Positions 1 to 13,023 of a DNA stretch of 64,000 nucleotides are shown here, piece after piece; position 1 is the first letter of the stretch, and the number at the start of each line of letters is the position of its first letter. The stretch lies in assembly GCF_018847375.1 (NCBI RefSeq), contig NZ_CP072036.1, positions 1,054,001 through 1,118,000 on the forward strand, given 5' to 3'. The notes below the pieces were generated by a model. It made no database searches, was not told the origin of the DNA, and was given only the letters and a program-made list of their open reading frames with translations. The DNA is from Akkermansia massiliensis. GTDB taxonomy: Bacteria; Verrucomicrobiota; Verrucomicrobiia; Verrucomicrobiales; Akkermansiaceae. Made by a program: the position numbers and the translations under genes.

Positions 1-71
1 GACAGCTCCAGTCCGGTCAGGGACGGAGCCCGCCCCAGACGTTTCAACCGTAGATGTTGTTTTCTTCTCAT
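1..71 (-). CDS. Partial 5' end of an unidentified gene
   Basis: An ATG at 71 opens a frame that runs without a stop to the left edge of the window (23 codons, beginning MRRKQHLRLKR). It starts 12 bases after the stop of the DUF932 gene on the same strand, so it would be the next gene of that operon. Too little is present to name a family; the basic N-terminus is the only visible character. Confidence 0.4.
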   Translation of the reverse strand, partial: MRRKQHLRLKRLGRAPSLTGLEL

Positions 72-83
72 GGTCGTTTCAGA

Positions 84-695
84 TCAGTTGTTCAGGGTAT
101 AGCTGTCGGCCAGATCCCAGAGCTCCCGGTTCAGGCGTGTGTTTCCGTCAATGCCATTGAGCGCACGCAGGGAGCGGCGACGATATACGCCGTCCGTCTG
201 CGGTTTTAAAGGAACGCCTCCCCGGATCAGGTTTTCCTGAACCCGGTTGAAGCACTGCCAGACGGTAGCTGGTCCTCCCGCCGTAAAGCCGATGTCGTTC
301 CAGCGCCGGGGCGACAGAAGGGCTTCGGGACGTATTTTGTCTTCGTAGTCGTCTCCCATTCGCAGCTGTGCCGCTTCATGAACGAAGTCCACCTGACGCT
401 TGTAGGGTAGTTCGACTCCCTGCATGCGGTGAATGTCGTCCATGATCCGGGGCGTTTCAGAGGCCAGCCGGAGACTGGCGGCGATCACCTCTTCTCCGGT
501 ATGACCCATGTGACGAATGTTGATCGCGGCAATACGCGCCCCGACAATCAGACCGTTGGTACACACCAGCCGGAAGATACCGGCCATGAGCTGGTAGGAG
601 CAGCTGCCGTTGTGACTGTTGATCATGACCACTTCGATGCGCTGCTCACGGTTGCGATAGAGTTCACGAGTGGATGTATGAGTATTCATATTCAT
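84..695 (-). CDS. DUF932 domain protein, short form
   Basis: The 203-residue product carries the DUF932 signature: an NSHNGSCSYQ stretch followed by FRLVCTNGLIVG near residues 27-50, then IRHMG near 62. DUF932 proteins are common on phages, plasmids and integrative elements, and their function is unknown. Many family members have roughly 80 more residues before this signature, so this copy is N-terminally short. The ATG at 695 and the one at 689 are both possible starts; a terminator-like hairpin lies only 28 bases upstream, so no longer frame is available. It is transcribed from the island-type promoter at about 790-820. Whether the short form is active or a remnant cannot be told from sequence. 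Confidence 0.75.
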   Translation of the reverse strand: MNMNTHTSTRELYRNREQRIEVVMINSHNGSCSYQLMAGIFRLVCTNGLIVGARIAAINIRHMGHTGEEVIAASLRLASETPRIMDDIHRMQGVELPYKRQVDFVHEAAQLRMGDDYEDKIRPEALLSPRRWNDIGFTAGGPATVWQCFNRVQENLIRGGVPLKPQTDGVYRRRSLRALNGIDGNTRLNRELWDLADSYTLNN

Positions 696-716
696 TGATG
701 ATTGGTTTGTTGCAAC

Positions 717-752
717 AAAAAGGCCGCCTCCCGGAACAAGGCCGGGAGGCGG
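717..752 (-). terminator. Leader hairpin with U5 tract before the DUF932 gene
   Basis: Reading the minus strand, an 11-bp perfect stem (CCGCCTCCCGG at 742-752 pairing with 724-734) is followed at once by five T. This has the form of an intrinsic terminator, but it lies between the promoter at 790-820 and the start codon at 695, so it may act as an attenuator. The gene starting at 10402 has the same arrangement. Confidence 0.6.
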
Positions 753-789
753 GCACAGGCAGGAAGCAGAGAAAGCTACTTCCTCAGGG

Positions 790-820
790 ATATATGACGT
801 GAGAAGAGAGTGATTTTCAG
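790..820 (-). promoter_or_regulatory. Island-type promoter for the DUF932 gene
   Basis: On the minus strand CTGAAA (820-815) is followed by 17 bases and then TCATATAT (797-790). The same pair with the same 17-base spacing occurs upstream of the gene at 10402 and, with two changes, upstream of the kinase gene at 20173. Assignment as -35 and -10 elements is inference from spacing and recurrence. Confidence 0.5.
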
Positions 821-871
821 GATGTCAGCAACTCTTTGTAAATATATGAATGCAATGATACATATTTTATA

Positions 872-899
872 TGTACAAGAGCATATCCGTGTGTATAAT
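872..899 (+). promoter_or_regulatory. Promoter of the winged-helix/nucleotidyltransferase pair
   Basis: TGTACA (872-877), 16 bases, then TATAAT (894-899). The ATG at 906 follows the -10 box by only six bases, so a normal transcription start would fall on or next to the start codon and give a leaderless mRNA. The repressor gene at 4017 has the same geometry. Confidence 0.5.
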
Positions 900-905
900 A
901 CTGTT

Positions 906-1892
906 ATGAGTATGTGGGAACCTTGGCAAAAAATCTGGATCAGGCTGTTCCATGAGTCCCTTCAGATAGAACTTGTTGATGGAGCAAAGCTGCCTTTGTC
1001 CCTCATCAAGCGTTTCCAATATGCCTACGCTTCTTGCCGGGGTAACAGGTTTTTGGCCGCTATGGACATGGATGTTGCAACTCCCAATCTTTACAGGCAG
1101 AACCTTCAACAGTTGGAAACTCTTTTCAAGCTTCCTGTTGTTTTTTTCCTGACCCGGACCCCGTCTTACCAGCGTAGCCGTATGATCAAGGCTAATGTCC
1201 CGTTCATGACCATGGACGGGTACGCGTATATGCCGCAGTTTTACATTCACTTGAAGACATGGGAACAGCATAAAAAAATTGAAAAGGAACCTCGTGAATT
1301 TCTCTCTCCCGTGGCTCAAGTCCTTGTGCTACGTCATATTCTTTTCCATGATATTCACGACCAGAATCTGCGACAAATAGGTTCCAGATTACCTTATTCG
1401 GCCATGTCGCTCAGTAATGCCAAAAATGAACTCGTCACCCATGGTCTGTGTCATTACGACGGGGTAACCACCAGGGGGCGCTTCAATATGAATCTTCCTG
1501 GTAATGTCTTGTGGGAAAAGGTGCTTCCCTTGCTGAGAAGCCCTGTTCAAAAACAACTTCACGTTCGTTTGCTTCCATTTCAGAGACGATTGCCTTTGGC
1601 GGGAGAGTCGGCGTTGAGCAGGCAGACTCTCCTTGTTGACGGAAACATCCCTACATATGCTGTGGGCAAACAGTCGATTCGGGAACTCTTTCTTCCCGGA
1701 GATCATCCGGAATCCGAACACGAGGAGGCTCAGGCCATCATCCAGCAATGGATGTATCCACCGGAAATACTCATGCAGCCGGGTGGCAAGTGGGTGGATC
1801 CTCTTTCGCTTTACCTTTCCCTTCGGGATTCATCGGACGATCGCGTCATTCAGGAACTCAATAAACTGCCCCTCTCATGCTTCGAAAAATAG
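906..1892 (+). CDS. Winged-helix protein, AbiEi-like partner of a nucleotidyltransferase
   Basis: The product is 328 residues from the ATG at 906, chosen because the -10 box lies just upstream; in-frame starts at 810, 822 and 846 exist. The middle region (LRQIGSRLPYSAMSLSNAKNEL) reads as a winged helix-turn-helix. The C-terminal half contains LAGESALSRQTLLVDG followed by PTYAV, a pattern I associate with AbiEi-like antitoxin/regulator proteins encoded beside nucleotidyltransferases. It overlaps the following nucleotidyltransferase gene by 16 bases, implying coupled translation. The expected role is DNA-binding regulator and antidote of a toxin-antitoxin or abortive-infection pair. The pairing is clear; the biochemical role is inferred. 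Confidence 0.6.
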   Translation: MSMWEPWQKIWIRLFHESLQIELVDGAKLPLSLIKRFQYAYASCRGNRFLAAMDMDVATPNLYRQNLQQLETLFKLPVVFFLTRTPSYQRSRMIKANVPFMTMDGYAYMPQFYIHLKTWEQHKKIEKEPREFLSPVAQVLVLRHILFHDIHDQNLRQIGSRLPYSAMSLSNAKNELVTHGLCHYDGVTTRGRFNMNLPGNVLWEKVLPLLRSPVQKQLHVRLLPFQRRLPLAGESALSRQTLLVDGNIPTYAVGKQSIRELFLPGDHPESEHEEAQAIIQQWMYPPEILMQPGGKWVDPLSLYLSLRDSSDDRVIQELNKLPLSCFEK

Positions 1893-2698
1893 AACATTTC
1901 TGCCACTACTTCGCCGAGTACAGTAATGCCTATGCGCTCATCGGAGGCGCGGCATGTACAGCATGGTACTCCGATCATATTCCTTCCTTTCGAGGGACGG
2001 AGGATTTGGACATTGTCCTGATTCTTGAATACATGGATATCCAGTTTACGGAAACGTTCCACGACTATATCAATCGGTCAGGATACAAAATACGTGAACG
2101 GATTGACCTCGAACAAGATGGAGTTTCCCGTAAAATCCTGTATCGTTTTTCCGAGCCGGAAGATACGGGAGCCCCTGCTCAGTTGGAGCTTCTCAGCCGC
2201 AAGGGAGATGCGCTACATCTGGTTCCCGGGCAACGGATTGTACCAGTAAAAGCACAGGATCAGTATACGGGGCTCTCCTGCATCGTTCTGGATGATACAT
2301 ACTACCATTTCTTCAGAGAGCACATCAGCCGGGACAAAGGCATTCCTCGTCCGACCATTCCCGTTCTCATGATCCTGAAGATAAAAGCTTGTCTGAACCT
2401 GTTTCACCAGTGGCAACAGGGAGAAGCACACGGTTCCGACAGTAGTCGGAACAACATCAGAAAGCATCGCAACGATGTCTTCTTCATGCTTTTTGATGTC
2501 GTCCAGGAAACGGATGCATTGCATCTTCCGGAAGCAATTCAGGACGATGTTCGAGAGTTCCTGAGAGAATATCAAGCCACCTCTCCCGACTGGCAGGGTA
2601 TCTTTGATCATTTACGTAAGCGACGAGGATCGGGAGCAACGACAGGGTTGACTTCGGAAGATCTTCTTCATGCCTTGACTGGTCTTTTCTATCTTTGA
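1877..2698 (+). CDS. Nucleotidyltransferase, AbiEii/MNT-like putative toxin
   Basis: The 273-residue product has a polymerase-beta-type nucleotidyltransferase core: LIGG at residues 21-24 and, about 20 residues later, TEDLDIVL with metal-ligand aspartates at 43 and 45. Basic and aromatic residues follow in the 130-190 region. Such enzymes transfer NMP groups to protein or RNA; in AbiE-type systems the enzyme is the toxin and the upstream winged-helix protein the antidote. The start lies inside the upstream gene (16-base overlap). No terminator is evident after the stop. The substrate cannot be predicted from sequence, and a housekeeping transferase role is not excluded. Confidence 0.65.
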   Translation: MLRKIEHFCHYFAEYSNAYALIGGAACTAWYSDHIPSFRGTEDLDIVLILEYMDIQFTETFHDYINRSGYKIRERIDLEQDGVSRKILYRFSEPEDTGAPAQLELLSRKGDALHLVPGQRIVPVKAQDQYTGLSCIVLDDTYYHFFREHISRDKGIPRPTIPVLMILKIKACLNLFHQWQQGEAHGSDSSRNNIRKHRNDVFFMLFDVVQETDALHLPEAIQDDVREFLREYQATSPDWQGIFDHLRKRRGSGATTGLTSEDLLHALTGLFYL

Positions 2699-2750
2699 TA
2701 AAAAGAGTGTCTCTCCATTCAAGGTGATTAAAAAGAAGGCTCCTCACGGT

Positions 2751-2860
2751 ATCCCTTTACCTTTTACACATTCGGAAGACTCCCTCCTATACTAATCCCT
2801 GAAACATTGCATTCTGGATTGTGGATGGAATCGCTCGGAGGTGGCGTCTTCATCGACTAA
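2751..2860 (-). pseudogene. Decayed 3' end of the RecB-like nuclease gene
   Basis: This segment aligns by eye, same strand, with the 3' end of the intact nuclease gene at about 8948-9050: both contain AACATTGCAT, GGATGGAA and matching spacing around the last cysteines, with many substitutions between. There is no open frame. It is a second, diverged copy of the nuclease gene end, lying on the far side of the regulator/Septu cargo from the intact gene. The flanks (2699-2750 and 2861-2928) show nothing recognisable. Confidence 0.6.
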
Positions 2861-2928
2861 CCCTGTCAAAGCAACGATGCATGACCAGCATGGCTCGTCT
2901 ATCAGTAAGAGGAGCATTCGAGTAATTT

Positions 2929-3146
2929 ATGATCGTGTCATAGCGACAAAGAGAACACCGCGACGATCTCGCTCCAGATTCGATTTACAAAAAACCAATT
3001 GAAGAGATCGGCGAAGTCGCCGACCAATTTGAAATGAGCCGCTCCGAAATTATCCGTCTCTCCTATTCTTTTGGGTTATTGGTCCTCAAAAACTTACTCC
3101 GGAAGGGCTTAAAAAAGCCGTTTCCCGATTGCTGACAGAAGAGTAG
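2929..3146 (+). pseudogene. Frameshifted ribbon-helix-helix regulator
   Basis: Pieces of one short DNA-binding protein can be read in successive frames: KENTATISL, then PIEEIGEVADQFEMSRSEI with IRLSYSFGLLVL, then LTPEGLKKAVSRLLTEE ending at the TAG of 3144-3146. The middle piece has the look of a CopG/Arc-type ribbon-helix-helix fold. At least two frameshifts separate the pieces and an in-frame stop follows the nearest ATG (2929), so the gene appears dead. Its end lies one base from the end of the convergent small gene at 3148-3300. Confidence 0.5.
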
Positions 3147-3147
3147 A

Positions 3148-3300
3148 TCATATAGGCTTCCCTTCCTTTTCGGATTTGGTGAGAACCTTCTCCTCTTCCT
3201 GTTCGAGGAGTACTTCTACGAGGGCGGACGCTTTCAGGCCGGTGGCCTTCTTGAGCCATTCCTGCGTCTTCGGTTTCGGGTGGGCTATGATCGTGTTCAT
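3148..3300 (-). CDS. Small ribbon-helix-helix-like protein, 50 residues
   Basis: An ATG at 3300 opens a 50-residue frame, MNTIIAHPKPKTQEWLKKAT onward, ending EKEGKPI. The TQEWLKKATGLKASALVEVL stretch resembles the helical part of Arc/CopG-like ribbon-helix-helix proteins and matches in pattern the 58-residue protein at 3730-3906 (KSAKWLRMAAGVSREKIVSS), so the two look paralogous. The stop is one base from the end of the convergent frameshifted regulator. Antitoxin or autoregulator roles are possible, but no toxin partner is visible next to it. Confidence 0.5.
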   Translation of the reverse strand: MNTIIAHPKPKTQEWLKKATGLKASALVEVLLEQEEEKVLTKSEKEGKPI

Positions 3301-3446
3301 TGTTGTAATTCATAACTTATGATTTATTTTCATTACTTTTCGCAACGTTATCAACAAAGAGATTACTTTTTTTATTTCTTGCAAAAAAAAATATTACTTT
3401 GTCATAACAGGCACATGAACGAACAATTCCGTGAAGAGCTACGTAA

Positions 3447-3728
3447 ATGCTTGAAGTCAAAGGAATCAGCCGGAAAACTTTGGCCGATGAATCAGGATAC
3501 AACGTCGTATACATCAACGGCTTGCTTACCTCTCGCGCCATCTCTCCGAAGGCAGAGCGCAACCTCCGTGCCGCCATGAAGCGTATTGAGGAAGACCCCG
3601 ACGAAGACCTTGGCAACATCCTCGTCAAACTCCCCGTCGAGACGGCGGAGAAAATCCAGCACGCCGCGGAAAAGCTCAAGATGGACATTGACGAGTTCGT
3701 CGCCATGGTGCTTGGGGAGAAAAAGTAG
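3447..3728 (+). CDS. Small helix-turn-helix regulator with ribbon-helix-helix-like tail, probably frameshifted at its 5' end
   Basis: The 93-residue frame from the ATG at 3447 reads MLEVKGISRKTLADESGYN and then VVYINGLLTSR, an XRE-like helix-turn-helix whose first helix is missing. The absent helix can be read just upstream in another frame from an ATG at 3415: MNEQFREELRK. Adding one A to the AAA at 3445-3447 would fuse the two into a normal helix-turn-helix protein of about 104 residues. The C-terminal part (VKLPVETAEKIQHAAEKL) resembles a ribbon-helix-helix segment. The gene ends one base before the convergent 58-residue gene. Either translation starts at 3447 or the gene has a single-base break. 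Confidence 0.55.
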   Translation: MLEVKGISRKTLADESGYNVVYINGLLTSRAISPKAERNLRAAMKRIEEDPDEDLGNILVKLPVETAEKIQHAAEKLKMDIDEFVAMVLGEKK

Positions 3729-3729
3729 T

Positions 3730-3906
3730 TCATACGGCTTTCTTCGGGTTCGGGGTTTCGGTCTCATGTTCGCTATGGGCCATTTCGTAAGTCATGCGGG
3801 CAAAGAGGGAACTAACGATCTTCTCTCTACTCACTCCGGCAGCCATCCGTAGCCACTTGGCCGATTTGGCGGACACGTCAATCGTGATACGTTCTTTCGT
3901 GTGCAT
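3730..3906 (-). CDS. Small ribbon-helix-helix protein, 58 residues
   Basis: An ATG at 3906 opens a 58-residue frame, MHTKERITIDVSAKSAKWLR onward. The RITIDVSAKSAKWLRMAAG opening (a beta strand then an amphipathic helix) and following VSREKIVSSLFARM match the ribbon-helix-helix layout. It is transcribed divergently from the LexA/CI-like repressor, with three operator-like half-sites in the gap at 3917-3952, so the two are probably cross-regulated in the manner of a phage Cro/CI region. It ends one base from the convergent regulator at 3447-3728. Confidence 0.55.
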   Translation of the reverse strand: MHTKERITIDVSAKSAKWLRMAAGVSREKIVSSLFARMTYEMAHSEHETETPNPKKAV

Positions 3907-3916
3907 GAGAAAGAAT

Positions 3917-3952
3917 TACCGAGCTTCTCGGTATAGTCCAAAAATATACCGA
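3917..3952. promoter_or_regulatory. Overlapping operator-like inverted repeats
   Basis: Three half-sites alternate here: TACCGA (3917-3922), TCGGTATA (3928-3935) and TATACCGA (3945-3952). The first and second form one inverted repeat with a 5-base gap; the second and third form a perfect 8-bp inverted repeat with a 9-base gap. They lie just upstream of the 58-residue gene and between it and the divergent repressor gene. Binding by that repressor is inference. Confidence 0.5.
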
Positions 3953-3982
3953 AAAAAACCGTTAAAAAGATATAAAAAAGCG

Positions 3983-4010
3983 TTGCTAATACCGGAAAAG
4001 TCCGTATTAT
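3983..4010 (+). promoter_or_regulatory. Repressor promoter with embedded operator
   Basis: TTGCTA (3983-3988), 16 bases, TATTAT (4005-4010), then six bases to the ATG at 4017. An inverted repeat, TAATACCGG (3987-3995) facing CCGTATTA (4002-4009), covers the spacer and -10 box and shares the ATACC core of the operator sites at 3917-3952. This fits negative autoregulation and a leaderless mRNA. Confidence 0.5.
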
Positions 4011-4016
4011 TAACGC

Positions 4017-4769
4017 ATGAAACCTACGAAAAAAGACATAAAAAAATGGCTCAAAGATATTGGAAAAGATAGGGTCTGGCTCGGAAAACAGTGTGGAGGA
4101 GCATCAAAAAGAACAGTTGATGACTGGCTCTCTACAGGAAGAGAGGTTCCAGCCAAGGCCATCTTAATCATTCAAGGGCTTATGAATAGAGGGCAAGATC
4201 CGCAAGACGAGGGCCGCAATTTTCAGCGAGTAGATACCATCACTCTCCAATTCTCAAAATCCGAATGGGAAGACATCCTTGCCTACCAAAAAATGAACCC
4301 CGGTAAAAACCTCGCCGAACTCGCAGAGGAATTCATTCTCAAACTGACAGACGACATTGAGAATGAAGCCAAATACAAGGATGATGACTATGCCCTCCCT
4401 GTCATTGGCAACATCGTTGCTGACAGATTCATGGCCGGCGACACTATCCCGTGGAAAGTCAAACCACGAAAAAAATACCCAAGTGACTATTTTGGCCTTC
4501 GTGTCTACGGAAACTCCATGGAGCCGCTTGTCAGTAATGACCAGATCGCCGTCATTCGTCCCTGGGATGATCCTGATATGCCCGACGTTGGCGACATTGT
4601 CGTTTACTCAGATGGGCGTGGTGTAATGCTCAAGCAACTTGCTCTCCGGGATGGAAAATATGTCCTCTCATCCCTCAATCCTCTTTACAAAGACATCACT
4701 CCAATCGACGGAGAAGGAAGAATCACGGGAATCTACGTTGACAAACTCGACGATTTCCGCAAGGCATAA
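4017..4769 (+). CDS. LexA/CI-like repressor with S24 self-cleavage domain
   Basis: The 250-residue product has an N-terminal DNA-binding region (VWLGKQCGGASKRTVDDWL, residues 20-38, helix-turn-helix-like), a linker, and a C-terminal S24 peptidase domain. The nucleophile is Ser167 in GNSMEP and the general base is Lys206 in GVMLKQL; Ala140-Gly141 (FMAGDT) fits the self-cleavage bond. Such repressors are inactivated when RecA filaments form after DNA damage. It lies 82 bases upstream of the adenine methylase gene, on the same strand, and divergent from a small ribbon-helix-helix gene. Control of the downstream methylase/Septu operon by DNA damage or phage infection is the natural inference, but the operators seen lie upstream of this gene only. 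Confidence 0.85.
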   Translation: MKPTKKDIKKWLKDIGKDRVWLGKQCGGASKRTVDDWLSTGREVPAKAILIIQGLMNRGQDPQDEGRNFQRVDTITLQFSKSEWEDILAYQKMNPGKNLAELAEEFILKLTDDIENEAKYKDDDYALPVIGNIVADRFMAGDTIPWKVKPRKKYPSDYFGLRVYGNSMEPLVSNDQIAVIRPWDDPDMPDVGDIVVYSDGRGVMLKQLALRDGKYVLSSLNPLYKDITPIDGEGRITGIYVDKLDDFRKA

Positions 4770-4851
4770 TCAAGCAAGCAACACCCACACGCCACCCAAA
4801 TACCACGAAATCCTCACAGACTGCAGTAACGTCTGAATCCTTCACCACGCC

Positions 4852-6024
4852 ATGAAAATCCCCATCCTCCCGCACATCCTAAAATACATGGGCTCCAAGC
4901 GGGAAATTCTCTCCTTCGTCATCGACACAATCCAAAAAACAGGAGTAGAAAGCAACTACTTCTGCGACCTTTTTGCAGGAACAGCACTCGTAGGATCAGC
5001 CTTCAAACATCAATACCGCGTCCACATCAACGATATACAATCCTATTCATCCATCTTCGCTCAAGCCTACCTCTACAACCTAAAAACATCAGCCCCTCTG
5101 GGAGTCATCGAAAACATCCACGAAAAAGCCCTCTCATACGTAAACGACCTCACAGCACACACCCCTGAACTAATTGCCGATTATTCAAAAATCACCCACC
5201 TCGACAATCTGCAAAGACTGGAAGAGCAACAGCGTGAACTACTCCATTCAGATATCCACACAGGCTTCCACCTATTCACCAAATACTACTCCGGCACCTA
5301 TTGGAGCTACGAACAATGCGCCTGGATCGATTCCATCCGGGCAGCTGCAGAAACCTACCGCAATACACTCATCTATGGCGCTATCCTATCAGCCCTCGTA
5401 TACGCCATGTCCTACACATCTCAGGGAACAGGCCACTTTGCTCAATACCGAGACATCACAGCCGCCAACATGCAAGACGTCCTCATCTATAGGACAAAAC
5501 AAATATGGCCACTCTTCGAGAAAAAATTTCACGAACTCATCACCACCATCGATTCAGACCCGCTCCATACCCCCCACCTCACCAGCCTCAACTACATCGA
5601 CTGTCTCAAAATAGTCGAACCCAAAAGCATCATTTACGCAGATCCTCCCTACAGCGCCGTCCACTATTCCAGATTCTACCACGCCATCGAAACCCTCGTC
5701 AAATACGACTACCCGGACATTCGCTACAAAGCTCGTTACCGCTGTGACCGCCACCAATCCCCATTCTGCACAAAAACTCAAGTCCACCAAGCATTCCGGG
5801 ATTTATTCCACTGTACACACGAACGCAACTCCCACCTCTTCCTCAGCTACAGCAACAGCGGCATGATTTCCATTGAAGAATTGCAACAAATTGCCAATAC
5901 TATCCTCGGCAGCAAGTACAAACAAAAAGTATTCGTTATGAACCACATGCATAGCAGAATGGGAAGTGCCGACACATACGGCTCCTATGTCAAAGAATAC
6001 ATCCTAGCCTTCACACAGTCATAA
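4852..6024 (+). CDS. D12-class DNA adenine N6-methyltransferase
   Basis: The 390-residue protein has the D12-class order of motifs: KYMGSKREI near the N-terminus (SAM-binding motif X), DLFAGTALVG at residues 39-48 (motif I), HINDIQ around 58-63, and the catalytic ADPPYSAVHYSRFYH with DPPY at 264-267 (motif IV). It should methylate adenine N6 in a specific DNA sequence that cannot be read from the protein. It is nine bases upstream of the Septu-like ATPase gene and appears co-transcribed. The base composition is visibly A+T-richer than the core genome, consistent with transfer. It could protect host DNA from the adjacent HNH nuclease or mark self DNA for it. Confidence 0.85.
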   Translation: MKIPILPHILKYMGSKREILSFVIDTIQKTGVESNYFCDLFAGTALVGSAFKHQYRVHINDIQSYSSIFAQAYLYNLKTSAPLGVIENIHEKALSYVNDLTAHTPELIADYSKITHLDNLQRLEEQQRELLHSDIHTGFHLFTKYYSGTYWSYEQCAWIDSIRAAAETYRNTLIYGAILSALVYAMSYTSQGTGHFAQYRDITAANMQDVLIYRTKQIWPLFEKKFHELITTIDSDPLHTPHLTSLNYIDCLKIVEPKSIIYADPPYSAVHYSRFYHAIETLVKYDYPDIRYKARYRCDRHQSPFCTKTQVHQAFRDLFHCTHERNSHLFLSYSNSGMISIEELQQIANTILGSKYKQKVFVMNHMHSRMGSADTYGSYVKEYILAFTQS

Positions 6025-6033
6025 CCTACAGCC

Positions 6034-7893
6034 ATGGCACAATCTCGCTCCTTCAGCAATCTTAAGACATCCTGGACAAAATACTCCATCGTCCAAGTCC
6101 TTGATGTACTCAAAAGCAAAGATATTCTCGAAGCATATCTCAATGGCCAAGAAGGAATAAAAATCAACCAACCCAACTTGAAAAGCTTCCTGGGCATCAA
6201 AAATACGCATGACGAAATACCGAAATTCTGGGAAAAGCTTTATAACTATCCTCAAGAAAAAATGCTCTTTGGTATGATGGCTTTAATCCTTACCCATCAT
6301 GAAATCATAGAGGCATTTATAGAATTTTCTTCCGGCGAAATGGACATGAAAGGAATTTTCATATGCGATGAAGAAAAAAACACAATAATCAAGTACAAAG
6401 AACAAACAAACGCGCGCAGTGCATTAGTCGAATCAGGCGCATCTTCATCAGAATACCGCCGAGCATCGAATGTCCCCTATGACTTTTCTGCAGTATTTCA
6501 GAATCCGGAACTAGGCCCTCTATTCAAAGAGCTCATCATCAACAGGTTCATTCGATGCGGATGGACGGAAGAAGAAATAGAGCAGAATATGCCTCAAATA
6601 TGTAGAGAAAATAAAATAGCTGAAATCTTCAATGTAGAACCGAATTTTTTCCAAATATGGCTCACTAGCGCAAAGCCCGGAAACTACATACAGAAATTAA
6701 ATATCAGTGAATTCATCGCAATGAAAAATATTGTGATGGATTTCTCCAATTCTAAAGAAATTTATTTTCTGGGTGAAAACGGCGACGGAAAAACACTCCT
6801 TCTCATGGCACTATTTCTCGCATTCCGTAAAGGCTACCTGGATCAACAGGAAGAAATAGGTGACTTTGCTAGAATATTAGACATCTTCAGGAAAAACCCA
6901 TCCTTCGAAATATCAGGTAATGATGAACAGGGAGGAATATACTCCACCAAAAACAAAGCATACCTTCCGAGAATATACGCCTATGGCCCCCAACGAGCCA
7001 GAACAGACGTAGAAACTGCCGACCCCCACGGATTCAGAACACTATTCAACTCCTATTTCGATAACAACATCCAGCTCATTTCGCCAGAAGCCTGGTTAAA
7101 AGACTTAAAGGGAAAAGAAAGCACAAAAACCCTTACAAATCAACAATCAGGAATGGAAAGGGGTCAATCAGATGAAGCATCTTCCACAAATATATCTCTC
7201 CATAAAGACAGACTCAGCTTGATTTCCACAACATCATTGGAAGAAGTTTTATCTGACATTCTTGAAAAAAATATCACAATAACATGGGTCGGGAACGAAC
7301 CACAATTCAAAGAACATGACACACCAATCTCATTCGACTGCCTTTCCGAAGGCTATAAAAGCATCATCATCTTTGTTGTCGATTTAATCTACAGACTCGT
7401 ACACGACGATAATGATGACGAAGAAACCAAGGTGCTCGAAAAAAAAGCAATAGTCCTTGTTGATGAAATAGAACTTCATATCCATCCAAGATGGCAAATG
7501 AATCTTGTCAAAAAGCTGAGAAACAACTTTCCAAACATTCAATTTTTCTTCACAACACACAGCCCAACAATCATTCAAGCTGCTTCAGATGAAGCAATCA
7601 TTTATCGAATATTCAGAGAAGAAGGTACCACATCCATAAGCCCATCATTTAAAAGGAAAGACCTAAATCGTTTAACAATCAATACACTTGCCACCTCTTC
7701 CCTGTTTGATCTGGATACCGCTCTCTTAAACCCCGTAACAGACGACTATACGACAGCAGATACATATGCGCTAGACCGCCTCAATACCAAGCTGGAACAT
7801 CTACTGAAACAACAGCGCAAACTAGGCAAAAAGTTCTTAACTGATAACGACATAGATCAAATTATTGACACCATTTTGAAAAAATATGTTTAA
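6034..7893 (+). CDS. ptuA: Septu-like defence ATPase (PtuA-like)
   Basis: The 619-residue ABC-like/AAA ATPase has a Walker A motif GENGDGKT at residues 247-254, a Walker B LVDEIELHIHP with Asp477-Glu478, and a switch histidine in TTHSPTIIQ (His509). The N-terminal 240 residues resemble no domain I can name and make the protein longer than a typical PtuA. The next gene, overlapping by 8 bases, encodes a PtuB-type HNH nuclease, which is the basis for the Septu assignment. In Septu the ATPase and nuclease form a complex that acts during phage infection. Gene order here is methylase, ATPase, nuclease. Other ATPase/HNH systems with the same core are possible. Confidence 0.75.
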   Translation: MAQSRSFSNLKTSWTKYSIVQVLDVLKSKDILEAYLNGQEGIKINQPNLKSFLGIKNTHDEIPKFWEKLYNYPQEKMLFGMMALILTHHEIIEAFIEFSSGEMDMKGIFICDEEKNTIIKYKEQTNARSALVESGASSSEYRRASNVPYDFSAVFQNPELGPLFKELIINRFIRCGWTEEEIEQNMPQICRENKIAEIFNVEPNFFQIWLTSAKPGNYIQKLNISEFIAMKNIVMDFSNSKEIYFLGENGDGKTLLLMALFLAFRKGYLDQQEEIGDFARILDIFRKNPSFEISGNDEQGGIYSTKNKAYLPRIYAYGPQRARTDVETADPHGFRTLFNSYFDNNIQLISPEAWLKDLKGKESTKTLTNQQSGMERGQSDEASSTNISLHKDRLSLISTTSLEEVLSDILEKNITITWVGNEPQFKEHDTPISFDCLSEGYKSIIIFVVDLIYRLVHDDNDDEETKVLEKKAIVLVDEIELHIHPRWQMNLVKKLRNNFPNIQFFFTTHSPTIIQAASDEAIIYRIFREEGTTSISPSFKRKDLNRLTINTLATSSLFDLDTALLNPVTDDYTTADTYALDRLNTKLEHLLKQQRKLGKKFLTDNDIDQIIDTILKKYV

Positions 7894-8668
7894 AATCGAC
7901 AAAGACCTGAATAACATCCCCAGCTCTCTTCTCTCACTGCCAACCCACCAAAAACGTCAAAAACATATAGCCGCTAAAAAATACATCACAGGCTCGCGAT
8001 ACAACGAATCCTACAAGGAAAAAGATATCAAGGAAACTCTCGAAAAAATCCACTATAACAAATGTGTTTATTGTGAAGTTTGGGTAGAAGAATACCATAT
8101 CGAACATTTCAGGCCAAAATCAATATACTATTGGCTCGCCTACAGTTGGGACAACCTATTGCTCGCCTGTCCAACTTGCAATAGAAGCAAGTTGGATCAA
8201 TTCCCTTGTAAGAATGCCAATTGCACAACCCTTCCCCAAGACATCGATCCAACTGATACATCCGAAGAAAATATAAAAAAAATCAACCTTCTCTCCGAGG
8301 AATTAAACCGCCAGGAACAACCATTACTTATAAATCCCGAACTAGAATCCCCTATTGGTAAATTGCAGTTTGAAGAAAACGGCACCATTAAATCATCTGA
8401 CGAACGATATACTGAGACCATCAACGTCTGCAAGTTGAACAGAAACAAACTCACGCTGCTAAGAAAAAAAATATTTGACGATTTGATTAACAAGATAAAA
8501 GCCGAACTTGTTACTAGTGACAGCATTCAAGAACAATGCAAGAACATATCCAAATTATTTAATGAAATCAAAAGAAAATCATTGGATAGATCAGAATGTT
8601 TATTAACATTGTTGGTTTACATTTCCGAAAACTTCCATGAAATAGTAAGTAAAAATATACTAAAATGA
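7886..8668 (+). CDS. ptuB: Septu-like HNH endonuclease (PtuB-like)
   Basis: The 260-residue protein contains a zinc-supported HNH nuclease. Cys60 and Cys63 (KCVYCE) with Cys95 and Cys98 (CPTCN) make the zinc site; the HIEH motif (His71, His74) followed by FRPK and Asn99 make the catalytic part. The phrase HFRPKS then SWDNLLLACPTCN is typical of PtuB proteins. The start overlaps the ATPase gene by 8 bases, so translation is probably coupled. It is expected to be the effector that cuts nucleic acid when the ATPase partner is triggered. The C-terminal 120 residues are charged and without a recognisable domain. A hairpin follows at 8738-8759. Confidence 0.8.
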   Translation: MFKIDKDLNNIPSSLLSLPTHQKRQKHIAAKKYITGSRYNESYKEKDIKETLEKIHYNKCVYCEVWVEEYHIEHFRPKSIYYWLAYSWDNLLLACPTCNRSKLDQFPCKNANCTTLPQDIDPTDTSEENIKKINLLSEELNRQEQPLLINPELESPIGKLQFEENGTIKSSDERYTETINVCKLNRNKLTLLRKKIFDDLINKIKAELVTSDSIQEQCKNISKLFNEIKRKSLDRSECLLTLLVYISENFHEIVSKNILK

Positions 8669-8737
8669 ATTTAAATATTGCATGCTGATTTTTGTATTCA
8701 ACACGTCATCTCCTGCAAGAAACCACCTTTTCCTAAA

Positions 8738-8759
8738 ATTTTGTTACATCTAACAAAAT
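8738..8759 (+). repeat. A+T-rich inverted repeat after the Septu operon
   Basis: ATTTTGTTA (8738-8746) faces TAACAAAAT (8751-8759) around a four-base loop. It follows the nuclease stop by 70 bases, without a T run, so it is a weak terminator candidate or an mRNA-end structure. The remainder of 8669-8900 shows no gene. Confidence 0.4.
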
Positions 8760-8900
8760 GATCTTACATCTCATCCATCCCAATCCTCCAGTACCTGTCA
8801 GCCGCTTCTCTGTACACCCGTGCTCTGTAATGTCTCAACCAATAGAAAACTTATAGGTGTGAAGCATAAAGCACTTCTAAGTGTTTAATAAGCCTCGACT

Positions 8901-8931
8901 AAAAAGAAACCCCTCATTATGACGGGTTTCT
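8901..8931 (-). terminator. Terminator of the nuclease operon
   Basis: On the minus strand AGAAACCC (8931-8924) pairs with GGGTTTCT (8912-8905) and is followed by four more T. It lies 17 bases after the stop of the RecB-like nuclease gene. The vWA gene at 18140 ends with a similar AGAAAG/CTTTCT hairpin followed by TTTTAG. Confidence 0.65.
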
Positions 8932-8947
8932 GAATAAACGCCTTTCC

Positions 8948-9817
8948 TCATCCTTTGCACCACCCGAAGCATTCCTTCTTGTACTGGCACCAGGAACATT
9001 GCATCCCGGACTGGGGATGGAAACGTTTGGTGGTGATGCCTTCACAGGCGATCTTGTACAGGTCGGCGGCGCGTTGCTTTCGCTGTTCGTTGGCTGGCGG
9101 GATTTTGACTCGGACCACTTGCGGTGTCTTCGTCTTGGCCAGGTAGATCAGATCCAGTGACGGAGGAGTGTCTCCCGTGGCTTCTTCGATCATCATCTGG
9201 TAAGTGACCAGCTGGAGTTCATGATCGAAGGTTGCATGCCCGGTGTCCGGTTTGGCGGCAGCGGATTTGTAGTCCACTGCCGTCAGGTCGCGCTGGACGA
9301 GGTCGATGACGCCTCGCACGGGAACCGGCAGGCCGGGGATGGCGGCAGACAAGCCGACTTCCACTCCCAGGGGCATTTGTGAAGCAACCTCGTTGGAGGC
9401 CATGTAGGCTTTGATCGTATTCCAGGCACAGGAACGTATCTTCTGTCTCGTTTCTTCGTCGACGTAGTCCACCGGGCCTTCCGTCTTCTCCAACTCCAGA
9501 AAGTGGGCGGAGAAGGCTTCTTCCATGGCCGTCTCACTACTGTCCTCTTCCCGCCATCGGGCGAGGTTGAAGGACTGGAGTGTGGCGTGGATGGCCTTGC
9601 CGACATGCGGGGCAACCGTCGTCGGCTTCCGTATCTGTGCTACCCTCTCGAAGAAGAAGCGCAGAGAACACGACAGATACGATTTGACCGAGGAGGGAGA
9701 CAGGTAGTCCGGGCGGATGGCAGAAGGAGAAGAAGCCTCCGAAGGAAATTTGTTCACCAATGCGATAGCCGGGTGCAGGGAGGATGAACGTATGGGACAG
9801 GTTACGGGAGCAATCAT
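8948..9817 (-). CDS. Cas4/AddB-like PD-(D/E)XK nuclease with iron-sulphur cysteines
   Basis: The 289-residue protein has the RecB-family nuclease core: GVID with Asp172, then VDYKSA with Asp182 and Lys184, preceded by an HVGKAIHATL helix around residues 71-80. Cys50 plus Cys274, Cys277 and Cys283 have the one-plus-three layout of the 4Fe-4S cluster in Cas4 and AddB. It should be a DNA exonuclease that trims ends for recombination. The gene lies three bases after the stop of an upstream gene with a recombination-protein-like tail, so the two form an operon. A diverged copy of its 3' end is at 2751-2860. No CRISPR array or cas gene is nearby, so a CRISPR role is not supported. Confidence 0.8.
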   Translation of the reverse strand: MIAPVTCPIRSSSLHPAIALVNKFPSEASSPSAIRPDYLSPSSVKSYLSCSLRFFFERVAQIRKPTTVAPHVGKAIHATLQSFNLARWREEDSSETAMEEAFSAHFLELEKTEGPVDYVDEETRQKIRSCAWNTIKAYMASNEVASQMPLGVEVGLSAAIPGLPVPVRGVIDLVQRDLTAVDYKSAAAKPDTGHATFDHELQLVTYQMMIEEATGDTPPSLDLIYLAKTKTPQVVRVKIPPANEQRKQRAADLYKIACEGITTKRFHPQSGMQCSWCQYKKECFGWCKG

Positions 9818-9820
9818 AGG

Positions 9821-10402
9821 TCAGTACGGGTTGGAGTTACCGGCATAGGTCGTAGCGGGACGGCGGGTGTAGTTGTTCCTGCCTGATGCCGAACGTTTGG
9901 ATGTCGCACCGGAGCGGTTCATCAGTTCGTCGATTAACCCGGAGGCTTCCATGCGGTTGAGCATGGCAACGGACTTGTTGAATCTCCGGGAAGCCAGTTC
10001 GTTCAGGGCAGAGTCATCCAACCCGGCCTTCCCGGCCAGTTCCAGGATGAGAGACTGTTGCTTCTCCGAGAACTTCCATGTGGGAACGGTTGCAACAGAG
10101 GTCTCGGGAGCGCTTGCAGGCGGTGTTTGTTTCACGGATGATGTGGATATCATCTGTGAGCAGGAAGCCCCAAGGGCAGGCCTTTGCGTGACCTGTGAGC
10201 CGTAATGTTCGTCAGGAACGAACCCGACCTGTTGGATCCGGGCGTCGACGGCAGTCTGAAGGGAGCCGTAGAGCCGCTCGGTTTCCGCAGCCAGTTCGGA
10301 TGTGTGGGTGATTTCGGTTTCGATGGAGACCTCGAACTGGTGGGAGGAATATCCCGGCAGTCCGAGTCGTTTGCTGTAGTTGGCGATGAGTTTGATAGCC
10401 AT
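9821..10402 (-). CDS. Partner protein of the nuclease, with a recombination-protein-like C-terminus
   Basis: The 193-residue frame begins at the ATG at 10402 (MAIKLIANYSKRLGLPGYSS); an upstream in-frame ATG at 10468 lies inside the leader hairpin and is unlikely. The N-terminal half (KLIANYSKRLGLPGYSSHQF, then VSIETEI) is a conserved-looking domain without a name I know. After a Ser/Thr/Pro-rich linker, residues about 115-165 (KFSEKQQSLILELAGKAGL to ASGLIDEL) resemble the short helical module found near the end of several phage single-strand annealing and related proteins. The tail is basic. With the nuclease three bases downstream, a DNA end-processing or annealing role is plausible but unproven. 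Confidence 0.55.
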   Translation of the reverse strand: MAIKLIANYSKRLGLPGYSSHQFEVSIETEITHTSELAAETERLYGSLQTAVDARIQQVGFVPDEHYGSQVTQRPALGASCSQMISTSSVKQTPPASAPETSVATVPTWKFSEKQQSLILELAGKAGLDDSALNELASRRFNKSVAMLNRMEASGLIDELMNRSGATSKRSASGRNNYTRRPATTYAGNSNPY

Positions 10403-10438
10403 GATGGTGGTTCTTTCGTTGTTGATGGATGGATACAG

Positions 10439-10473
10439 AAAAACCGCCATGCCCCGGGATGGGACCATGGCGG
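10439..10473 (-). terminator. Leader hairpin with U5 tract before the 10402 gene
   Basis: On the minus strand CCGCCATG (10473-10466) pairs with CATGGCGG (10451-10444), with additional G/C pairing inside the loop, and five T follow. It lies between the promoter at 10515-10545 and the start codon 41 bases further on. The arrangement is the same as at 717-752 although the stem sequences differ. Confidence 0.55.
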
Positions 10474-10514
10474 CTCTTCGAAGGATGACAGGCAGGTAAA
10501 TCCCTGTGTCTGGT

Positions 10515-10545
10515 ATATATGACGGGAGGGAAGGTGTTATTTCAG
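10515..10545 (-). promoter_or_regulatory. Island-type promoter of the nuclease operon
   Basis: CTGAAA (10545-10540), 17 bases, TCATATAT (10522-10515) on the minus strand, identical in both boxes and spacing to the promoter at 790-820; the spacers share a pyrimidine-rich character. The stretch from 10546 to 10745 shows no gene. Confidence 0.5.
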
Positions 10546-10745
10546 ATGAGAAAGAGCTTCATATCCCGTTGTCCCGGGAAAGTGGACATGAACTTGTCGT
10601 ACCCGGAACCATGAATCGTAGTAGCTGTCTTGGTCAGCTGATGCCAGTAGGAAGATCGCATGAACAGTATTTACGAGCCAGGTAAAGACACGAAGTTAAA
10701 TCAGAATTGGCGCAGCCTTCTCCCGGAGATACTGTGGATCCACAG

Positions 10746-11681
10746 TTAAAGAGAAGGATCATCTCCATTTGGCAAATGGACGGAAGTTTTCTTTGATACC
10801 TGACCGGAGAACATGGAAACTAAATCCATTACCCGCGGATTCTGTTTTCCCTTGAGCCAAACCGCCCAGAGTTCAAAATTCAACCGCTCACGGGGGTCAG
10901 ACAGTTCCTTATATAAAATTTGGTTCCTTACCGGTGCCGAAAATTCACGAGGCAACAGAGTCATGCCGGAACCGGAACCTACCAGCAACAGCATTTCCGC
11001 CATATTTGTAACTCCCCTGAATTTCAAAGTTTCCAGAACGTCTTCCGGAAGAAAATTCCGTATTTCCTGATAATGCAGTCCGCCTTTTCTGTTCCCCATA
11101 TACAGGAAGGTTTCCCCGGATATATCCTTGCTGGTTAATGATCTCTTGCGAGCCAAGGGGAGCTCCTTTCCTAAAAAAAGTTTCATGGGAGATGAAAAAA
11201 TCCGTCGGGTCTTGAACCTGGGATGGGAAGGAACGTTATGCGCTATGACAAAACCAATCTGGATTTTTCCCTGAAGAAGCGCGTCCAGTTGCTGAATATC
11301 CGGTATATCAGCAAGCTCAAATTTGAGTCCGGGATGTTTTTTGCAAAAGGCGGATATTGTTTCCATCAGGGTAGCTATTCCAAATGGTCCCGGTGTTCCA
11401 ATAGTAATTATCTTGGTCTCATCCGAAATAGTTCTGGCCCTGGCTACCATCTCTTCTGCTTTCAGCAGAAGATTCCTTGCATCATCCAAAAAAGCCTCTC
11501 CCGCAGGAGTCAGCCGAACGCCCGCCGTATTCCGCTTGAGCAGAATCACTCCTATGGAATCTTCCAGATCCCTGATCTGCTTGCTTAATGCAGGATGGCT
11601 GACATGCAGCTTATCTCCGGCCCTGCGGAAATTCAATTCTTCGGCCACCGTGATGAAGTATTTTAAATGGCGGATTTCCAT
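10746..11681 (-). CDS. LysR-family regulator of the RND efflux operon
   Basis: The 311-residue protein has the LysR layout: an N-terminal winged helix (MEIRHLKYFITVAEELNFRR, then HVSHPALSKQIRDLE) and a C-terminal periplasmic-binding-like effector domain from about residue 90. It is divergent from the efflux operon, with 85 bases between the start codons containing two overlapping inverted repeats, the usual arrangement for a LysR activator of its neighbour. The inducer cannot be inferred. Transcribed alone; no clear terminator is seen after the stop. Confidence 0.9.
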   Translation of the reverse strand: MEIRHLKYFITVAEELNFRRAGDKLHVSHPALSKQIRDLEDSIGVILLKRNTAGVRLTPAGEAFLDDARNLLLKAEEMVARARTISDETKIITIGTPGPFGIATLMETISAFCKKHPGLKFELADIPDIQQLDALLQGKIQIGFVIAHNVPSHPRFKTRRIFSSPMKLFLGKELPLARKRSLTSKDISGETFLYMGNRKGGLHYQEIRNFLPEDVLETLKFRGVTNMAEMLLLVGSGSGMTLLPREFSAPVRNQILYKELSDPRERLNFELWAVWLKGKQNPRVMDLVSMFSGQVSKKTSVHLPNGDDPSL

Positions 11682-11692
11682 GGTCGTTTCTC

Positions 11693-11720
11693 TGGTAAGT
11701 TGCAGTTACCAACACGGTAA
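11693..11720. promoter_or_regulatory. LysR-type operator between the regulator and the efflux operon
   Basis: TGGTAA (11693-11698) faces TTACCA (11706-11711) with a 7-base gap, and the same TTACC faces GGTAA (11716-11720) with a 5-base gap. Overlapping palindromes in the shared gap of a divergent LysR gene and its target are typical binding sites. Confidence 0.5.
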
Positions 11721-11766
11721 TATCAAAGTCATTCCCGATTTTCGAACAAAACGATACTTTACAGCC

Positions 11767-13023
11767 ATGAGAAATTCTCCACCCAATCTGCCGTCACTTC
11801 TGTCCCGGTTCCAACGGCAAGCCAAGGCATGCGCGTCTGCACCGGCAACCGTATTGGCCGTGGCCTTGATGCTGCTGACCGGCTGTACTCCATCCGAGGA
11901 AAAAGCGGATGGGGCTGGCGACCCCATGCGGAATAGCCCTCTGGAAGTCGGGACACTCACGTTGGACACAGAGGAAGTCGTCATCACGCAAGAACTTCCT
12001 GCCCGCATTTCTTCGCTCCGCGTTGCCGAGGTCCGTTCCCGCGTTGACGGCATCGTCCAGAAGTGCTGCTTCGAAGAGGGCGCCTTCGTAAAAGAAGGAG
12101 AACTTTTGTATCAAATCGACGATGCTTCATATAGAGCGGCAGCCAACAGGGCCAAAGCGGCGCTAGCCAAAGCCCGATCTAATCTGGAATCCGCCGAACT
12201 GAAAGAAAAACGTTACAAGGCCTTGCTCGGAAACCGTGTCGCCAGTCAACAGGAGTATGAAGATGCCAAGGCTTCCCTGCTTGCCTGCCAGGCCGATGTC
12301 ATGTCGGCCGAGGCTGATTTGGAATCAGCATTGATCGATCTCAATTATACCCGCGTAACAGCCCCTGTAAGTGGCCAAATAGGGAAATCGGAAATCACGG
12401 AAGGAGCTTATGTCCGCAAGGACGAAGCCACTCTCATGGCTACTGTGCGACAAAATGATCCGGTTTATGTGGACATGACCCAGTCCAGCGCTAATCTGGT
12501 ACAGCTTAAACAAGCTCTTCACAGCAATGAACTTCACCGGGCCGATTCGTCGGATACGGCAAGAGTCACTCTGGCCCTGGAAAACGGCGCCGACTACGAT
12601 CAGGAAGGGATATGGAAATTTACCGACACCGTCACCAACGCCAATACAAGTTCCGTCACCATCAGGGCGGTATTCCCCAACCCGGACAACTACCTGCTTC
12701 CTGGGATGTTCGTTAAGGCCTTCATTGTAGAGGCCAGAAAGGAAAACGCCATTCTCATTCCGCAGGCGGTTGTCATGCGTGATACCAAAGGAGAACCATA
12801 TGTTTATATTGCAGGCAAAAACGGAACCGCTGAACAAAAAAGCATCGAGATATCCCGTTCCATGGGAAATCGGTGGCTGGTCAATTCCGGACTCAACAAA
12901 GGCGACAGGATCATTGTCGATCATCTGCAAAAAATGGCCGATGGCGTGCCAATTGTTGTTGTCGATGTTTCCGGCCAGGAAAAAGGCTCCGGGGAACATT
13001 CATCAAATGCCACGGACTGTTAA
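11767..13023 (+). CDS. RND efflux periplasmic adaptor (AcrA-like lipoprotein)
   Basis: The 418-residue frame starts at the ATG at 11767; the open frame extends further upstream through the regulator but without a signal. The N-terminus carries a lipoprotein signal ending LLTGC. The middle shows the membrane-fusion order: barrel/lipoyl half (VRSRVDGIVQK), alpha-helical hairpin (ANRAKAALAKARSNLESAEL), second lipoyl half (YTRVTAPVSGQIGKSEI), then a beta barrel ending in LLPGMFVKAFI. It links the inner-membrane pump to the outer-membrane channel encoded downstream. First gene of the adaptor-pump-channel operon, 17 bases before the pump gene. Confidence 0.92.
   Translation: MRNSPPNLPSLLSRFQRQAKACASAPATVLAVALMLLTGCTPSEEKADGAGDPMRNSPLEVGTLTLDTEEVVITQELPARISSLRVAEVRSRVDGIVQKCCFEEGAFVKEGELLYQIDDASYRAAANRAKAALAKARSNLESAELKEKRYKALLGNRVASQQEYEDAKASLLACQADVMSAEADLESALIDLNYTRVTAPVSGQIGKSEITEGAYVRKDEATLMATVRQNDPVYVDMTQSSANLVQLKQALHSNELHRADSSDTARVTLALENGADYDQEGIWKFTDTVTNANTSSVTIRAVFPNPDNYLLPGMFVKAFIVEARKENAILIPQAVVMRDTKGEPYVYIAGKNGTAEQKSIEISRSMGNRWLVNSGLNKGDRIIVDHLQKMADGVPIVVVDVSGQEKGSGEHSSNATDC

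Follow-up and report, generated by a model that had tools for sequence, protein, structure and literature searches.

A methylase-linked variant of the Septu defense system in Akkermansia massiliensis, with a candidate DNA-recognition domain at the front of PtuA

In its usual form, the Septu defense system consists of two genes and includes no dedicated methylase. Here we analyze an operon of Akkermansia massiliensis in which a PtuA-type ATPase and a PtuB-type HNH nuclease are preceded by an adenine DNA methylase, and in which the ATPase carries a distinct N-terminal domain (hereinafter N-domain). The stretch analyzed, referred to below as the window, comprises 64,000 nucleotides (assembly GCF_018847375.1, contig NZ_CP072036.1, positions 1,054,001 to 1,118,000). 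The passage of PMC8565338 that deals with Septu recognizes type I and a retron form (type II), and places an operon denoted Hma often in the vicinity of Septu. Passages in two further articles (PMC10853773, PMC12839542) cite Krishnan et al. 2020 as having already reported arrangements of an ABC ATPase with a nuclease and a methylase. Among the literature matches listed, no methylase-linked Septu was apparent from the titles and the beginnings of the abstracts, and a prior description is possible. We file the operon as a methylase-linked variant of the known Septu, not as a wholly new system. Its components are as follows.

4852..6024, + strand: predicted adenine DNA methylase of the D12 class, 390 residues (PF02086, DPPY motif at 264-267)
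6034..6672, + strand: N-domain of the ATPase, approximately residues 1-213, a methylase-linked module delineated by profile searches and proposed to be a DNA reader
6673..7893, + strand: PtuA-type ATPase core (Walker A 247-254, Asp477-Glu478; AAA_21, PADLOC PtuA1)
7886..8668, + strand: PtuB-type HNH nuclease, 260 residues (Cys60/63/95/98, His71/74; PADLOC PtuB1)

The ATPase gene as a whole spans 6034-7893, starting 9 bases after the methylase and overlapping the HNH frame by 8 bases. The Pfam matches are to PF02086 for the methylase (3.6e-19), AAA_21 for the ATPase (2.8e-15) and HNH for the nuclease (1.2e-06). The named motifs are intact, namely DPPY at 264 of the methylase, which with PF02086 makes it a candidate for a site-specific methylase of the type II-like restriction-modification kind, the Walker A sequence GENGDGKT and the Asp-Glu pair (within VLVDEIE) of the ATPase, and all six Cys and His residues of the HNH protein. 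The original prediction, made from the DNA letters and their translations, had placed the frames, the motifs, the gap and the overlap at precisely these coordinates; its description of the methylase as genetically fused to Septu holds in the sense of one operon, not of one protein.

The kinship with PtuA and PtuB that had been claimed for the ATPase and the HNH protein is borne out by several comparisons. PADLOC identifies the former as PtuA1 (1.4e-41) and the latter as PtuB1 (1.4e-47), and the ATPase core devoid of the N-domain scores slightly better than the whole protein (3.1e-42 vs 1.4e-41). All of the 50 PDB fold matches listed for the AlphaFold model of the ATPase (mean predicted local distance difference test score 78.6) are complexes of the retron I-A/Ec78/Eco7/Ec83 group or Septu, with template modeling scores of 0.31-0.39 by query length, so that the relationship to PtuA also stands at the level of predicted structure. 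Moreover, among the PDB sequences, a profile of ATPase relatives (alignment A1) matches PtuA 8ee4 at 1.8e-25, and the HNH protein matches PtuB at 7.6e-06. The NCBIfam models of PtuA and PtuB, which were built for retron Ec78, give matches below their cut-offs (115.1 of 500 and 67.7 of 150, respectively). Thus, the operon combines a PtuA-type ATPase with a PtuB-type HNH gene directly downstream, as in Septu, and departs from the usual two-gene form in the methylase.

The association of this methylase with the N-domain is conserved. Alignment A1, made of 30 ATPase relatives, served to scan genome contigs by means of two peptides, one from the Walker A region and one from the N-domain. The A1 scan yielded 52 loci, of which 18 encode the N-domain (L001-L016, L023 and L049) and 34 do not, and a single-sequence scan of genome contigs gave no match. 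A methylase of the same family lies upstream, on the same strand, in all 18 N-domain loci, whereas it is found with none of the 34 ATPase relatives that lack the N-domain, 28 of which have at least 1300 bases of upstream sequence. In 17 of the 18 loci, the methylase frame is at most 100 bases from, or overlaps, the next frame, the gap in the remaining one (L015) being 331 bases. The methylase of L005 is broken into two open frames; this locus counts among the 18 but entered neither the distance nor the tree tests. An HNH gene is present in 15 of these loci, the others being L009, where the sequence stops about 100 bases past the ATPase, L015, with a shortened ATPase, and L049, which encodes another effector and no ATPase core. 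According to the record titles, 17 of the loci are from Bacteroidota and one (L009) is from a Methylococcaceae bin.

Given the presence of the methylase in 18 of 18 loci with the N-domain and in none of the 34 without it, the three genes are not chance neighbors, and the operon is better filed as a Septu variant than as ordinary Septu type I. PADLOC names PtuA, PtuB and a type II methylase separately and has no combined model, which would fit an ordinary two-gene Septu lying next to an independent orphan methylase; in view of the co-occurrence and the close spacing, we reject such independent neighbors and regard this explanation as having next to no chance of being correct. The dedicated methylase and the Septu variant postulated in the original prediction thus survive the search for the methylase next to PtuA and PtuB homologs.

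Among 22 ATPase relatives on virus contigs, 15 have an HNH match; the N-domain and the methylase are absent from all 22. The methylase alignment (A3) detected seven loci on virus contigs, two of them close, and the single methylase sequence none; one IMG/VR contig reached through the methylase (L098) contains the complete three-gene set and is the only virus contig with the N-domain. The plasmid collection contains the N-domain in a single Roseibium record, and the phage collection gave no match to it. Among 395 Bacteroidota genomes, in a set whose center genome (G049) was picked because the system is present there, the methylase was found in three and the N-domain in two of these three; a P0160-type methylase was detected in one of 393 Bacteroidales genomes, the center genome itself. 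The methylase was detected in none of 39 relatives of the nearest genome, in a set that includes no positive control, and the ATPase profile matches 13 of these 39 genomes, in each case starting beyond the N-domain. In a mirror-tree test, the methylase/N-domain pair did not stand out, and the methylase profile had no match among PDB sequences at E 0.01.

The original prediction noted about 240 N-terminal residues of the ATPase that it could not assign, and this is indeed a domain of approximately 213 residues, strongly conserved in motifs such as TSWTK and TNxRSxL, the window copy of which matches nothing in PADLOC or PHROGs at 0.01 and Pfam only at E 0.15. When 22 members were compared with Pfam, no family matched more than one of them (best E 0.003), and the single match of the domain profile to PDB sequences (E 0.049) was taken as chance. 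With respect to fold, the structure alignment (A5) comprises 20 of the 22 rows of alignment A4, and BrxA ranks first among the VIA-align rows; other reader folds are absent from these rows, an absence that excludes none of them. A relationship to BrxA was rejected at the sequence level, where a profile of 15 BrxA sequences (5 of 20 BrxA loci having been left out) gave an hhalign probability of 0.3%, and the likeness can be considered a structural lead only.

What the original prediction overlooked is the mobility of this domain. Profile searches detect it beside the same methylase family on proteins that are not PtuA. In L049 (9001-11178) and L094 (7495-9642), it is fused to a DGQHR-domain protein, with no PtuA core; TIGR03187 of NCBIfam scores above its cut-off in both, and the Pfam DndB model scores below cut-off in L049 and above it in L094. 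In the Roseibium plasmid record (L097), the N-domain (1.2e-20) is located on a P-loop protein that PADLOC labels PDC-M26A and that is followed by a DUF2357/PD-(D/E)XK protein. By eye, the latter pair resembles McrBC, but this kinship to McrB/McrBC was confirmed neither by PDB sequences nor by NCBIfam, and we accordingly speak of a P-loop protein. As judged by these profile matches, the N-domain is a separate mobile module that is tied to the methylase and rides on varied effectors. In one N-domain ATPase (L016, 7972-10164), about 130 extra residues separate the domain from the ATPase core.

The front of PtuA varies in other ways as well. In the front parts of seven PtuA relatives without the N-domain, Pfam recognizes a TIR domain in one, NB-ARC and TPR in another and TPR in a third, and no family in the remaining four. 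The three recognizable cases, each with an adjoining PtuB-like gene, are TIR at L019 2659-4338, NB-ARC/TPR at L032 6112-10158 and TPR at L031 3-2162, and these are possibly other sensor forms of Septu. Given such diverse domains attached to PtuA cores, the N-domain included, the N-terminal part of PtuA appears to serve as a slot for sensors.

The methylase, for its part, has relatives in a different context. A close methylase without the N-domain was seen in four loci (L093, L095, L096 and L099), each of which has a PF09195 gene of the BglII family that adjoins the methylase in three of them and is separated from it by one HTH gene in L096. The latter locus also encodes a DndB-like (DGQHR) protein, and in L093 (9306-10633) two different BglII-family genes adjoin each other beside a single methylase. 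BglII cuts AGATCT and BstYI cuts RGATCY. Because the close methylases are found with BglII-family genes, we guess that the methylase site is probably GATC-centered, of the BglII/BstYI type. In a tree of 27 methylases, in which 8 of the 24 inner branches are weak, the window methylase belongs to a supported set of eight rows, seven with N-domain/PtuAB and one with N-domain/DGQHR; the methylases of L096 (BglII) and L097 (N-domain/P-loop) pair as sisters with support, and the well-supported branches imply that each of the labels PtuAB, BglII and DGQHR was gained or lost at least twice.

Taken together with the computed gene content, family memberships, tight methylase/N-domain linkage and different effectors behind the N-domain, these observations lead us to propose that the three-gene set is probably a form of Septu that tells self from non-self and resembles restriction-modification, a scheme that we hold to be somewhat favored in its full form. 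Across the host genome, the methylase would mark the adenines of a single short sequence, such self/non-self marking being our best inference for its role and a GATC-centered site of the BglII/BstYI type being probable. The N-domain would be a DNA-recognition domain that binds this site in its unmarked state, in which phages and plasmids entering the cell would carry it, and this binding would switch on the PtuA ATPase core and its HNH partner. Cleavage by the HNH nuclease, whether of the foreign DNA or of something in the host, for example a tRNA, would then stop the infection. We infer the reading of DNA by the N-domain, the site, the unmarked form as the trigger and the target of PtuB. The scheme follows the logic of LlaJI, in which McrBC-like subunits, together with methylases, act on unmethylated DNA, as described in a passage of PMC1459862. 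As for the target, passages in PMC11555353 and PMC13096335 cite the Septu of E. coli ATCC 25922 as a DNA cutter and describe the action of Retron-Eco7 PtuAB and Septu EcB88 on tRNA-Tyr. The opposite polarity, with an N-domain that binds methylated sites as in type IV systems, has a precedent in McrBC, which reads methylated DNA via the N-terminus of McrB (same passage of PMC1459862); under this scheme, however, the host's own methylase would turn the host genome into a target, and we consider it very improbable.

Alternatively, the N-domain could bind the methylase protein itself, in which case the methylase, alone or on DNA, would silence PtuAB, and a phage that attacks either the methylase or the DNA of the host would free the toxin. 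Such guarding is modeled on the role proposed for the reverse transcriptase and multicopy single-stranded DNA (msDNA) of type I-A retrons; in Retron-Eco7, according to a passage of PMC11555353, the toxin is PtuAB and the antitoxin consists of reverse transcriptase and msDNA. The invariable company of N-domain and methylase in the 18 loci and the presence of the N-domain on other effectors speak for it. The unconfirmed McrB kinship of the L097 pair slightly weighs against the self/non-self scheme and its modular extension, and raises the standing of guarding. Conversely, the related methylases beside BglII-family enzymes occur without the N-domain, where a guard role would be unneeded, and we regard guarding as rather unlikely.

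The N-domain could be an undescribed DNA-recognition domain that constitutes, with its cognate methylase, a portable self/non-self module. In the course of evolution, this module would have been coupled to at least three effectors, namely PtuAB, the P-loop protein with its PD-(D/E)XK partner and the DGQHR protein, and related methylases would also serve ordinary enzymes of the BglII family that act on sites of this type. We advance this modular reading tentatively, with the chances nearly balanced. Were it true, Septu in this locus would be one effector of a modular restriction platform.

Upstream of the operon lies a candidate regulatory region.

3917..3933, no strand assigned: putative operator, a perfect inverted repeat TACCGAG-CTT-CTCGGTA with 7-base arms, upstream of the repressor gene
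3928..3952, no strand assigned: putative operator, a second inverted repeat with 8-base arms 9 bases apart, overlapping the repeat at 3917..3933
4017..4769, + strand: S24/CI-like repressor gene, 250 residues (Peptidase_S24, Ser167 and Lys206, aligned dipeptide Ala135-Asp136), not conserved with the system

The repressor gene (Peptidase_S24, 1.3e-11) ends 82 bases before the methylase on the same strand. Of the 10 occurrences of the half-site TACCGA/TCGGTA in the 64 kb window, three are in the stretch of the two inverted repeats and none is in the repressor gene or the 82-base gap; the operator-like sites therefore lie upstream of the repressor gene and not directly upstream of the methylase. 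Thus, the repressor and repeats of the original prediction exist, but in an arrangement in which the repeats precede the repressor gene. Between 3700 and 9000, seven promoter-like sites were found vs 10.1 expected from shuffles.

It had further been suggested that the repressor is cleavable and that DNA damage induces the operon, such that the S24 protein would hold the operon off and cleave itself upon the SOS response during infection or damage. The Ser167/Lys206 dyad of the LexA/CI type, the operator-like repeats and the position of the gene accord with this proposal. LexA/CI-type cleavable repressors have Ala-Gly (or Cys-Gly) at the canonical place, whereas the repressor has Ala135-Asp136 at the aligned position; two full-length paralogs from the nearest genome (L110 and L117) have Ala-Gly there, and another Ala-Gly occurs in the repressor at 140-141. 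Furthermore, when the open frames of the 3 kb preceding the methylase, or of as much of it as each contig contains, were compared among 20 loci (L005 has no such frame), the only one shared was a small HTH frame, in L001 and L016. In L001, L007 and L016, the three loci subjected to the Pfam test, a small HTH_3/HTH_26 gene is located directly upstream instead of the S24 gene. Repressor relatives were detected in 7 of the 39 related genomes, full-length only in the nearest one (G001), in the set where no methylase was found. Damage induction is thus unsupported, and we consider it improbable; the repressor may control this copy of the operon and, as judged from the compared loci, is not part of the system in its relatives.

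The G+C content of the three operon genes is 0.36-0.48, compared with 0.574 for the window from 10700 to 64000, which suggests imported DNA; the named close relatives of the methylase and of the HNH proteins are from Akkermansia. The flanks (84-695 and 8948-10468, both on the reverse strand) encode a DUF932 protein, a PD-(D/E)XK (PDDEXK_1) nuclease and a protein with no family match. Gene types such as DUF932 and PDDEXK_1 are common on mobile elements, in agreement with the low G+C content. Two overlapping genes at 810-2698 on the forward strand, encoding proteins of 360 and 273 residues with no Pfam or PHROGs match, are possibly another defense or toxin-antitoxin pair; the 273-residue protein appears by eye to be a nucleotidyltransferase of the AbiEii-like kind and has a weak PADLOC match to HEC-02B (0.0071).

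From the passages cited, the way in which Septu detects phages does not emerge. Because the form described here brings a methylase of its own and a front domain that can be separated, a trigger can be tested directly, namely unmarked DNA at a predictable site; the form would further identify the front of PtuA as a slot for sensors and link Septu defense with restriction-modification. Among described systems, the BglII/BstYI-family type II restriction-modification systems share a related D12 methylase with the window operon, as in the four loci cited above, and differ in that none of the ten window proteins scanned belongs to PF09195, PtuAB being in its place. LlaJI-type (McrBC-like) systems likewise combine an NTPase that has its own N-terminal half with a nuclease and methylases and act on unmethylated DNA (PMC1459862, in part); the window operon has PtuAB and one D12 adenine methylase vs the two 5-methylcytosine methylases of LlaJI. 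Retrons of type I-A (Septu type II; Ec78/Eco7) possess this effector pair too, preceded by an additional gene (PMC8565338, in part), but have reverse transcriptase and msDNA where the window operon has the methylase and the N-domain; no reverse transcriptase family was found among the ten proteins scanned, and no Rfam match in positions 1-12000. In Septu type I, too, a PtuA-type ATPase is followed by a PtuB-type HNH nuclease, and to this pair the operon described here adds the N-domain and a dedicated adenine methylase.

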